From Rhodobiaceae bacterium (lineage in GTDB: Bacteria > Pseudomonadota > Alphaproteobacteria > RS24), in the NCBI GenBank assembly GCA_002683515.1, contig NYTN01000053.1, forward strand, positions 1 through 35,555: a stretch of DNA of 35,555 bases, written 5' to 3'. Positions 28,543-31,334 of this stretch are shown piece after piece. Made by a program: the position numbers and the translations under genes. Within the stretch, counting starts at the first letter, position 1; each line of letters starts with the position of its first letter. The notes below the pieces were generated by a model that did no database searches, had not been told where the DNA came from, and saw only the letters and a list, made by a program, of their open reading frames with translations.

Positions 28543-29262
28543 ATGGAAAAAAATACCTCTAAAAGGCGCACTGATATTGCTGCCGAGACCATTGGCAGGC
28601 AAATTGTAAGAGGAAAACTGTCTATCGGGCAGGTTTTGCCTAATGATCAGGTCATGTGCGAGTCACTCGACATTTCCAGAACTATTTTACGAGAAGCATT
28701 ACGCATATTGGGAGCTAAAGGGCTTGTAAAAGCTGTTCCAAAAGCCGGAACATTCGTAAATGATACAGATAAATGGGCCATGTTAGACTCAGATATCCTA
28801 AATTGGCTCACCGATACCACTACGAGCAGTCGTCTTGAACCTCTTTTGGTGGAAATGATTGATATCCGTCTTGCTATTGAACCTGGCGCTGCCGCACTTA
28901 CCGCTTCTCGCGCACAAGCCACCGAACGACAAAGAGTATCTGAATTATTTCAATCACTTAAACTCGCCACCACGCCAGCATCAAGCCATGAGGCGGAAGC
29001 CGCTTTTATTGACTGCATTTTAGCGAATTGCCACAATCGTTTCTTCAATAGCCATCGTATGTTAGCAAAAACCTGTCTTAAATTGCTCTTTGAGCATACG
29101 GAAAGATATAATTACTTATCTCTTACCGCCCATGAAGCCGCCGTTCGCGCCATCATAAATTATGAACCACAAAATGCGCGGCGCAGCATGCAAGCTATAT
29201 TACTGCAAGCATCTCCTATTATCCGAAACAAAAAAAACCCTGCTGACGAATCAGCAGGGTAG
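28543..29262 (+). CDS. GntR-family transcriptional regulator (FadR/FCD subfamily)
   Basis: A DNA-binding repressor or activator with an N-terminal winged helix (AAETIGRQIVRGKLSIGQVLPNDQVMCESLDISRTILREALRIL, residues 13-58, then AKGLVKAVPKAGTFV) and an all-helical FCD effector domain from about residue 100. FCD domains usually carry a metal site from a D..FH motif and two more His. Here the equivalent segment reads EAAFIDCIL, without the Asp or His, and the final His is replaced (AILLQAS), with only TAHEAAV kept. Metal binding is therefore doubtful. No regulated pathway is adjacent. The last codons coincide with a hairpin at 29238-29259. Confidence 0.88.
   Translation: MEKNTSKRRTDIAAETIGRQIVRGKLSIGQVLPNDQVMCESLDISRTILREALRILGAKGLVKAVPKAGTFVNDTDKWAMLDSDILNWLTDTTTSSRLEPLLVEMIDIRLAIEPGAAALTASRAQATERQRVSELFQSLKLATTPASSHEAEAAFIDCILANCHNRFFNSHRMLAKTCLKLLFEHTERYNYLSLTAHEAAVRAIINYEPQNARRSMQAILLQASPIIRNKKNPADESAG
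29230..29259 (-). terminator. Strong intrinsic terminator on the minus strand, inside the gntR 3' end
   Basis: On the minus strand CCCTGCTGA-TTCG-TCAGCAGGG is a perfect 9-bp stem with a four-base loop, followed directly by eight T residues. On the plus strand no T-tract follows the hairpin. It is therefore oriented against gntR and implies a minus-strand transcript, for which no protein gene is present. Confidence 0.7.
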
Positions 29263-29325
29263 AGTTCAGGGATATGTGTGTGAGGGTTTAACACACAGTC
29301 CGTCTTGGGAGACGGATATTTAATT
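29230..29325 (-). ncRNA. Candidate small RNA antisense-oriented between gntR and the EF-hand gene
   Basis: On the minus strand three hairpins follow each other: TCCGTCT-CCCA-AGACGGA (29299-29316), TGTGTGT-loop-ACACACA (29275-29297), and the intrinsic terminator at 29238-29259 with T8 tail. Two loops carry pyrimidine-rich strings, TCTCCCA and AAACCCTC, of the kind that can pair with ribosome-binding sites. No protein-coding gene lies on this strand here. The 5' end is not defined; I see no convincing promoter. Confidence 0.45.
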
Positions 29326-29367
29326 TACGTTGCGTTTAATAAATTGGATTAACTAATGGAGAAAAAA

Positions 29368-29706
29368 ATGCCTTTTAAGTTCGAAATTTTTACAAAGCGT
29401 TTGATTACCCTGGTTGTTTTGGTGGTAATGATAATAAGCTTTAGTAATTCAGCCTACGCAGCGCCAATCCGTTTTAAAGCTATGGATGCGAATAAAGACG
29501 GCAAAGTCACGCAACAGGAATTTACTGCCAAAATCGACCAGCAATTTGCTAAGATGGATAAAAATAATGACGGCTTGATCCAGCACAATGAGCTGAAAAC
29601 TTTCCATGCCGCAAAATTTGAAAAAATGGACCGCGACAATAATGGATATCTGGATAAAAAAGATAGACGCGTCAAAAAAATGGATGAGAAGGAAGGTCGC
29701 CACTAG
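29368..29706 (+). CDS. Exported EF-hand protein
   Basis: A small secreted or periplasmic calcium-binding protein. The signal sequence (FTKRLITLVVLVVMIISFSNSAYA) is followed by three EF-hand loops: DANKDGKVTQQE, DKNNDGLIQHNE and DRDNNGYLDKKD; the tail is highly charged (RRVKKMDEKEGRH). ATG 29368 is preferred because GGAG lies seven bases upstream; the track ATG at 29356 overlaps that site. It is the first gene of the sigma-factor operon, ending 17 bases before the sigma gene, so its product may be part of the envelope signal it reports. Similar EF-hand genes beside ECF sigma factors are common in alphaproteobacteria. Confidence 0.88.
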   Translation: MPFKFEIFTKRLITLVVLVVMIISFSNSAYAAPIRFKAMDANKDGKVTQQEFTAKIDQQFAKMDKNNDGLIQHNELKTFHAAKFEKMDRDNNGYLDKKDRRVKKMDEKEGRH

Positions 29707-29723
29707 CACTAAGGAGGCCGCTC

Positions 29724-30275
29724 TTGTCTGAACCCAGCGACGAAGACTTAATGTCTGCAATTGCTGAAGGCGACCAGATGGCCTTCAATCTGCTGACCTC
29801 AAGGCATTTGAAGATGGTTTATGCGATAGCATTGCAGAGATTAAAGCACCCAAGTGACGCTGAAGAAGTGGCACAGGATGTTTTTACCCGTCTCTGGCAA
29901 AATGCACCTAAATGGGAAGCCGAAGCCAAAATCAGCACATGGCTTTATCGTGTTTGCGTTAACCGCTCGATTGATATGCTAAGGCGGCGCAAACCCATGA
30001 CCGATATAGACGATGTTCCAGAAATTCCAGATGGTGCCGATAACGCTCTTCAAACTTTGGAAACCAAAGACAGAAAAAAACAAATAGAAGAAGCATTAGG
30101 CAATTTAACGAGCGAACAGCGTGACGCTATCCAGCTTGTCTACTTTTCTGAGATGAAGCAACAAGAGGCTGCTGACTCGCTTGGGTTGAGTTTAGCAGCA
30201 TTGGAGTCACTTTTACGCCGCGCCAGAAAAAAACTGCATACTGTATTAAATGAAAATTATGAAGAATTATACTGA
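29724..30275 (+). CDS. RNA polymerase sigma factor, ECF type
   Basis: A group IV (extracytoplasmic function) sigma factor. Region 2 (FNLLTSRHLKMVYAIALQRL, DAEEVAQDVFTRLWQNAPKW, STWLYRVCVNRSIDMLRRRK) and region 4 (LTSEQRDAIQLVYFSEMKQQEAADSLGLSLAALESLLRRARKKL) are complete in 183 residues. The start is TTG, fixed by a full AAGGAGG six bases upstream. It is followed after 38 bases by a single-TM protein that is probably its anti-sigma factor. ECF factors usually activate their own operon; no clear GGAAC-type promoter was found upstream. Confidence 0.93.
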   Translation: MSEPSDEDLMSAIAEGDQMAFNLLTSRHLKMVYAIALQRLKHPSDAEEVAQDVFTRLWQNAPKWEAEAKISTWLYRVCVNRSIDMLRRRKPMTDIDDVPEIPDGADNALQTLETKDRKKQIEEALGNLTSEQRDAIQLVYFSEMKQQEAADSLGLSLAALESLLRRARKKLHTVLNENYEELY

Positions 30276-30313
30276 GAGGACACCTATCGGTAATTGGGGA
30301 GACATGACGAGAA

Positions 30314-30781
30314 ATGACTGACGAAAAGAAAAACGCCGTATCTTTCGATATGCATAAATTCAAAACGCTTATCTCTGCCCATGGTAGTGATATTGCAAAA
30401 TGGCCCGATGATAGCCGCAATTGGGGGCTGGCCTATAGCAGCGATAATAACGAAGCTCAAAAATTCATCTCTTATGAAAAAGAGCTGGATGATGTATTGG
30501 TGGATATTCACAACACTGCTCTTAACTCTGAAGATTTCTCGAGCCTTCAATATAAAATCGTTTCCGAGGCCACGCGCCTACCTCAACAAATGCACTCGAG
30601 CAATCAAAATCCTTTTATGGGTTCATCCATTCAATCCGTAGCCGCCTGCTTAATGATGTTTGTCTGTTTGGCAGCGGGCATGTTCAGCCTCCCCTATCTG
30701 CCTTTGGACACGATTACCTCCACTTACAGCGAACAAAACTTCGCTTTTCTTGAAATCAATCCTTTAAGTTCATGGGATTAA
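30314..30781 (+). CDS. Putative anti-sigma factor, single transmembrane segment
   Basis: A 155-residue protein with a cytoplasmic N-terminal half that contains HGSDIAKWPDDSR, a motif recurrent in alphaproteobacterial membrane proteins encoded next to ECF sigma factors. A single hydrophobic helix (SVAACLMMFVCLAAGMFSLPYL, about residues 108-130) precedes a short periplasmic tail. There is no zinc-binding HxxxCxxC motif, so it is not a ZAS-type anti-sigma. Gene order and topology support an anti-sigma role, but I see no direct sequence proof. Confidence 0.68.
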   Translation: MTDEKKNAVSFDMHKFKTLISAHGSDIAKWPDDSRNWGLAYSSDNNEAQKFISYEKELDDVLVDIHNTALNSEDFSSLQYKIVSEATRLPQQMHSSNQNPFMGSSIQSVAACLMMFVCLAAGMFSLPYLPLDTITSTYSEQNFAFLEINPLSSWD

Positions 30782-30794
30782 ACTGGAGTTGATC

Positions 30795-31334
30795 ATGAAC
30801 CCCACGCTTATCCAAATCAGCAAACGAAAACGTATTATTTTCATCATTGTGCTCCTGTTTTCTCTTGCCGCAAATTTCTTTGTACTTGGCGCAGGAATTA
30901 GTTTCTTTATGCAGAGTCAACCAACCGGTGATGCTGAAAAAATAAAAACTGTGGAAAGGCTAGAAAAAAGATTTCTAAAACGCATCAATGCAGATGATCG
31001 ACTGGCTGTCCGCGAGGTTTTTAAACAAAACAGGAAACAAAGCGCAGTGCTGTTCAAAACCTATTTCAAAGAAAGAGAAGAAGTCATCGCCTACATTCAA
31101 GGTGATGAGATAGACAAAACTGAACTGCAAATAATGTCAGATAATTTGTTACGCCAAGAACGCGCATTGAGTATTCATCTCAATGCTGTTTTACAACAAC
31201 TTATCCAAGTGTCAGGACAAGAGACCAGAGTGCGTATTGCAGATATGCTTCGCCTAAGAGATGGCCGCCACCGTGGTGGGCGCAGTTGGCTAGCACCTAA
31301 AGAAAGACTTCGTAAGCACCAGGATAAAAAATAA
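30795..31334 (+). CDS. Periplasmic Metal_resist/CnrX-like protein, membrane anchored
   Basis: One N-terminal TM helix (IIFIIVLLFSLAANFFVLGAGISFFM, about residues 12-38) is followed by a helical periplasmic domain (LEKRFLKRINADDRLAVREVFKQN through RQERALSIHLNAVLQQL) and a basic Arg/Gly/His tail (LRDGRHRGGRSW). This layout fits the Metal_resist (PF13801) group related to CnrX and CpxP. The HxxxH metal ligands known from CnrX are not visible, so nickel/cobalt sensing should not be assumed. ATG 30795 has TGGAG six bases upstream. Sigma, anti-sigma and periplasmic protein together recall CnrH/CnrY/CnrX. Confidence 0.75.
   Translation: MNPTLIQISKRKRIIFIIVLLFSLAANFFVLGAGISFFMQSQPTGDAEKIKTVERLEKRFLKRINADDRLAVREVFKQNRKQSAVLFKTYFKEREEVIAYIQGDEIDKTELQIMSDNLLRQERALSIHLNAVLQQLIQVSGQETRVRIADMLRLRDGRHRGGRSWLAPKERLRKHQDKK

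Follow-up and report, generated by a model that had tools for sequence, protein, structure and literature searches.

Introduction

According to a study published in 2026, a calcium protein of the Caulobacter periplasm forms a loop with an ECF sigma factor, the membrane link being left as a question mark (PMC13171946). In Caulobacter vibrioides, these two components are encoded by cabp (CCNA_02838) and sigV (CCNA_02837), and a response of the CaBP-SigV system to calcium limitation and to acid has been reported (PMC13171946). SigV drives cabp from a mapped promoter that reads GGAAA, 13 bases, CGTTCA; the two genes are transcribed separately, the sigV promoter being located inside cabp (PMC13171946). 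The loss of CaBP has a weak effect on the cabp promoter, with little effect under acid or EGTA, which in our reading suits an output better than a sensor, and CaBP overexpression raised sigV expression (PMC13171946). The literature that we searched makes no mention of CCNA_02836 and CCNA_02835. In Azospirillum brasilense, activation of the RpoE8 operon has been studied only within the RpoE6 regulon (PMC12826043). Regarding the CnrYXH system of Cupriavidus metallidurans, a role has been described for Met123 of CnrX (PMC7689651). Here, we analyze an alphaproteobacterial four-gene module that is likely an autoregulated ECF operon of the SigV type, of the same kind as Caulobacter cabp-sigV.

Genomic organization of the locus

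The window, i.e., the whole stretch of DNA that was analyzed (35,555 nucleotides), comes from a PS1-clade alphaproteobacterium whose nearest named loci are those of MED-G50, UBA6963, and IMCC14465 (sigma identity 87-98%). ORF and domain searches bear out the claim of a first-pass annotation that four genes follow each other on one strand, encoding an EF-hand protein, an ECF sigma factor, a protein with a single transmembrane (TM) helix, and a Metal_resist-like protein (plus strand, 29368-31334; Table 1). The gaps between them amount to 17, 38, and 13 bases. Since the four genes recur in every genome of the window genus examined and the arrangement recurs across the class, it is not a matter of chance. 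The start of the EF-hand gene is supported by a GGAG ribosome site 7 bases before the ATG at 29368, an in-frame ATG at 29356 being a less likely start.

Table 1. Features of the four-gene module and of its upstream region, in window coordinates
Feature	Position	Strand	Remarks
GntR/FCD regulator	28543..29262	+	Pfam GntR 9e-13, FCD 2e-11; conserved in the family as the gene upstream of the module
Inverted repeat CCGTCT-TGGG-AGACGG	29300..29315		Contains the -35 element; read from the sequence
Predicted ECF-type promoter GACGG-ATATTTAATTTACGTTG-CGTTTA	29311..29338	+	Precedes the EF-hand gene; reads GACGG-N17-CGTTTA, or GACGGA-N15-CGTTT in the wider form
Exported EF-hand protein, CaBP-like, 112 aa	29368..29706	+	Pfam EF-hand_5 E=1e-15
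ECF sigma factor, 183 aa	29724..30275	+	TTG start, AAGGAGG ribosome site
Putative anti-sigma factor, 155 aa	30314..30781	+	Cytoplasmic helical N-domain, one TM helix, short periplasmic tail
Membrane-anchored periplasmic Metal_resist (CnrX/ZraP/Spy-like) protein, 179 aa	30795..31334	+	CnrX ligands absent

The GntR/FCD regulator is also found upstream of the sigma gene in the family loci laid out. A hairpin (CCCTGCTGA-CGAA-TCAGCAGGG, window 29230-29259) lies behind an A-run and spans the end of its gene; on the minus strand it has the form of an intrinsic terminator, although the end of the next minus-strand gene is 2 kb distant. On the downstream side (L092, L094, L095, L097), some genera of the family possess an RND/MMPL-type membrane protein gene directly after the Metal_resist gene, on the same strand, and in other family genera a TetR regulator faces the Metal_resist gene.

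Conservation in the family and in the class

Outside the genus, the sigma, single-TM, and Metal_resist genes are kept in this order in 13 out of 13 loci of the same family, all devoid of the EF-hand gene. At the class level, a census was taken of one Metal_resist locus per genome in 100 sampled Alphaproteobacteria genomes, the loci being annotated by means of profiles built on the four window proteins. Because strong PF13801 scorers are over-represented in the sample, the resulting fractions are indicative. The sigma gene adjoins the Metal_resist gene in 94 of these 100 loci, and the exact order EF-hand, sigma, single-TM, Metal_resist is found in 29, while the inspected loci among those missed by the single-TM profile mostly contain a TM-bearing ORF between sigma and Metal_resist. 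The four-gene module is common in Alphaproteobacteria. The EF-hand gene, initially viewed as an unusual addition, occupies the same place directly upstream of the sigma gene in 41 of the 100 sampled loci and is not unusual there. Along the sigma tree, the state of this gene changes 13 times as compared with ~40 times with shuffled labels, suggesting that it is inherited over long stretches, yet often gained or lost. Roughly half of the modules, and the family of the window outside its genus, have no EF-hand gene, so that the EF-hand protein cannot be essential to the switch.

The predicted promoter and regulon

In genera of the family other than that of the window, the motif TGAC(A/G/T)G-N16/17-CGTT(A/T) is located upstream of the sigma gene in 13/13 loci (0.02 expected), and the same element, as GACGG-N17-CGTTTA, precedes the EF-hand gene in 7/7 loci of the window genus. 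Once its leading T is dropped, the motif also occurs ahead of the EF-hand gene in 14 of 41 distant EF-first loci, with 0.22 expected and a count of two or fewer in any of 60 shuffles. The wider promoter consensus is GACGGA...CGTTT. Generic GGAAC-type ECF promoters are not enriched, and no conserved ECF-type promoter resides in the 17-base gap between the EF-hand and sigma genes. The first-pass annotation had raised the question of independent promoters for each gene; at the sequence level, the only conserved ECF-type promoter precedes the EF-hand gene and would serve the whole operon, but a separate sigV promoter inside cabp is reported for Caulobacter (PMC13171946).

Among six genomes of the genus, the only site of the strict motif common to all is the module's own, which points to a small predicted regulon centered on the operon itself; a looser motif returns sites in chance numbers. 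In two related genomes (G010 and G013), a module-type promoter (position 1501 of L337 and L363) precedes by ~50 bases an ABC transporter ATPase-permease pair that is divergent from an esterase-like gene. This pair is a possible second target of the sigma factor.

The arms of the inverted repeat that overlaps the promoter co-vary in genome G001 (CCGTCC/GGACGG). A second inverted repeat, TGTGTGT...ACACACA, is located before the promoter within 29275-29315, and some family members exhibit a different palindrome (CACATTTAATGTG) overlapping the inverted-repeat site. The inverted repeats of the promoter region might serve the neighbouring GntR/FCD regulator as an operator.

The sigma factor and its putative inhibitor

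Pfam analysis of the sigma factor reports Sigma70_r2 (E=8.5e-18) and r4_2 (E=4.6e-13) domains, and NCBIfam reports PRK05602 (2e-54, under the cut-off). In the PDB, CnrH is the top hit (2.7e-15), equalled by SigE of Rhodobacter (2.9e-15). The sigma factor evolves slowly, the EF-hand protein at an intermediate rate, and both membrane proteins fast, the sigma factor being far better conserved than these two partners.

The ensuing 155-residue protein comprises a single hydrophobic segment near residues 101-119. Its N-terminal domain bears a conserved motif, F..L...(Y/H)G.....WP, with conserved residues G24, W30, D59, and L62, and iterated HMM searches gathered a family of 146 ORFs. The structure predicted from a 13-row alignment exhibits four N-terminal helices followed by a TM helix (residues 106-124), with confidence only at residues 11-60 and low confidence beyond residue 60. 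Searches with this protein against Pfam, PDB sequences, and PDB folds do not return any hit, and no Pfam model is shared by any of 20 relatives; the putative anti-sigma family has no counterpart in Pfam or among the known anti-sigma families. The HxxxCxxC motif of the zinc-binding class I anti-sigma domain is missing, the N-terminal domain being devoid of cysteines. The single-TM protein probably restrains the sigma factor, which it would contact through its cytoplasmic side.

The Metal_resist protein

The last protein of the module scores 21.9 bits with PF13801 Metal_resist, below the cut-off of 29.2. Nevertheless, 17 of its 18 aligned relatives match this family (best 8e-24), so that homology to Metal_resist, judged by sequence, is sound; its family orthologues in other genera exceed the cut-off. 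It begins with an SLA.NFF-type membrane anchor and continues in helices, and the structural model comprises a TM helix (residues 10-38) and a helical bundle. The first-pass annotation of a periplasmic Metal_resist-like protein therefore stands as to homology, but the protein is membrane-anchored and not free in the periplasm. With an orthologue profile, the leading PDB matches include Spy, CnrX, and ZraP, with weak E-values (0.04-0.15). The fold search with the model reports partial matches with ZraP (TMt 0.85) and CnrX (TMt 0.68) at poor E-values; no match is found at E<0.001, the top ranks being unrelated helical bundles, with ZraP, CnrX, and NccX lower.

The metal ligands of CnrX, which we take to be H42, H46, E63, H119, and M123, were compared by profile alignment. 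In the window genus, the positions of E63, H119, and M123 are occupied by Arg, Val, and Leu, and the stretch preceding the E63-aligned position is devoid of His, in agreement with the earlier observation that the CnrX ligands are missing. Their loss is not particular to this locus, most Metal_resist proteins of the sampled alphaproteobacterial modules being likewise devoid of them. As many such proteins lack the CnrX metal ligands, the "heavy-metal resistance" label that they bear is probably misleading. These replacements bear on whether the module is a true transition-metal sensor of the CnrYXH type (Ni, Co, Zn, or Cu), with its ligands relocated. The parts are of the same kinds as in CnrYXH, CnrH ranks first among the solved relatives of the sigma factor, with SigE of Rhodobacter equal to it, and some His residues are present in the C-terminal tail of the last protein; with the ligand positions substituted and neither an efflux pump nor a metal gene adjoining the module in the window, such a sensor is very unlikely.

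Residues able to act as ligands at the CnrX positions are rarer in loci with an EF-hand gene (4/61) than in loci without (14/58; loci L163-L262 and L302-L321). An exchange of the metal site for an EF-hand partner was considered and rejected: the link between ligands and EF-hand vanishes on independent tree pairs.

The EF-hand protein

The first protein of the module possesses a predicted N-terminal export signal and three EF loops (DANKDGKVTQQE, DKNNDGLIQHNE, and DRDNNGYLDKKD) that start exactly 24 residues apart. Positions 1, 3, 5, and 6 are intact in all three loops, the last residue of the third being Asp instead of Glu, and the protein may be expected to bind Ca2+. Its closest solved relatives are lanmodulins (6MI5, 8FNS; best PDB sequence match 1e-9), which are likewise exported alphaproteobacterial EF-hand proteins; their loop period is close to 24 residues, and their EF loops typically carry a Pro at position 2. 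NCBIfam lanmodulin also matches the window protein (1.8e-12), and these three likenesses would speak for a lanthanide-responsive switch. However, the score of 47.5 bits is far under the equivalog cut-off of 135 bits, the protein has three loops and not four, and none of the three carries the Pro at position 2, which makes such a switch extremely improbable.

The same module in Caulobacter

Caulobacter genomes were recognised by a CtrA 97-100% identical to what we take to be the Caulobacter CtrA sequence. In 15 of 20 loci of this genus (L302-L305, L307-L313, L315-L317, and L320), the genes for the EF-hand protein, the sigma factor, the WP-motif single-TM protein, and the Metal_resist protein lie in a row. 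The distance between the EF-hand and sigma genes, ~29 bases, agrees with the published map (PMC13171946). Upstream of the EF-hand gene, GACGGA...CGTT is found in both the window and the Caulobacter loci; the latter read GACGGAAACGCCGGGGTCTGACGTTCA and similar, thereby containing the published cabp promoter (PMC13171946), and the promoter of L305 is GGAAA-N13-CGTTCA, as mapped for cabp. The published sigV promoter of C. vibrioides, used as a search pattern, returned scattered sites that were taken as chance. Judging from these sequence features, the window operon corresponds to the Caulobacter cabp-sigV locus. Since Caulobacter carries the same module, with the published EF-sigma spacing and the cabp promoter pattern, the open membrane link of CaBP-SigV is probably made up of the single-TM and Metal_resist proteins.

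Proposed mechanism

In the resting cell, the single-TM protein would hold the sigma factor at the inner membrane. The anchored Metal_resist protein, sitting on the periplasmic side of the single-TM protein and presumably in contact with it, would sense or relay a change of the envelope; the signal might be Ca2+, pH, or envelope damage. Upon the signal, it would adjust the hold and the sigma factor would be freed to transcribe, from the GACGGA...CGTTT promoter, chiefly the operon that encodes it. The periplasmic EF-hand protein would then rise, bind Ca2+, and either feed back on the sensor or buffer Ca2+. An accessory or output role is favoured by the patchy distribution of the EF-hand gene and by its position behind the promoter that the sigma factor itself would use, and feedback by the rise in sigV expression reported upon CaBP overexpression (PMC13171946).

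The main alternative is that of an envelope-damage sensor with calcium at the output only. The Metal_resist protein would act as CpxP, Spy, or ZraP, being titrated by damaged periplasmic proteins and thereby releasing the anti-sigma factor, and the EF-hand protein would be a sigma-dependent Ca2+ buffer or envelope stabiliser without a part in sensing. By profile and fold searches, Spy and ZraP are as close to the Metal_resist protein as CnrX is, albeit with poor E-values for the fold matches, and this protein is devoid of metal ligands; the EF-hand gene follows a sigma-type promoter and can be dispensed with across the family. In Caulobacter, the cabp promoter is little affected by CaBP under acid or EGTA, but sigV expression rose when CaBP was overexpressed (PMC13171946). 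On balance, this alternative is a serious possibility that falls somewhat short of being probable.

The calcium link proposed by the first-pass annotation is made plausible by the matching CaBP-SigV pair, for which the Caulobacter study reports a response both to acid and to limiting calcium (PMC13171946). An extension to a class-wide calcium- and pH-sensing envelope switch, in which the EF-hand protein would bind the ligand within a periplasmic complex that also comprises the CnrX-like protein and the WP-motif anti-sigma factor, is tentative and rather unlikely; if true, an ECF sigma factor would here be governed by a calcium sensor of three parts, which would also supply the membrane component of the Caulobacter CaBP-SigV model. 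With two candidate genes, a promoter element, and class-wide relatives, the CaBP-SigV membrane link becomes directly testable. In the literature searched, of incomplete coverage, no description was found of the full four-part arrangement, the promoter, or the WP-motif family.

Comparison with known systems

The logic of the module resembles that of CnrYXH from Cupriavidus metallidurans (CnrH 4CXF; CnrX 2Y39), as proposed by the first-pass annotation and consistent with CnrH being, on a par with SigE of Rhodobacter, the top PDB match of the sigma factor and with CnrX, ZraP, and Spy ranking high, if weakly, for the last protein. Both systems combine an ECF sigma factor, a single-TM inhibitor or inhibitor candidate, and a membrane-anchored helical periplasmic protein. 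In contrast with CnrYXH, the CnrX-like protein of the window is devoid of metal ligands; the inhibitor candidate is longer, with four predicted cytoplasmic helices instead of two (residues 11-60 being confident); an EF-hand protein is present, and no cnrCBA pump lies alongside. The gene order differs as well, that of CnrYXH being cnrY-X-H. The best reading is that the window operon works like CnrYXH but, the metal ligands having been looked for and found missing, is not a member of it.

The Azospirillum brasilense RpoE8 operon similarly comprises a sigma factor, a hypothetical protein, and a periplasmic heavy metal sensor (PMC12826043), and the sampled Azospirillum loci match this layout, but they have no adjoining EF-hand gene.

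The preferred counterpart remains cabp-sigV. As in Caulobacter, an exported three-EF-hand gene is located directly upstream of an ECF sigma gene on the same strand, with a gap of 17 bases in the window; the promoter pattern is shared, and the same two genes follow downstream in the sampled Caulobacter genomes. The differences are that the window EF-hand protein is shorter, with the Gly intact in all three loops, and that the Caulobacter study names neither an anti-sigma factor nor a Metal_resist protein and reports separate transcription of cabp and sigV (PMC13171946).
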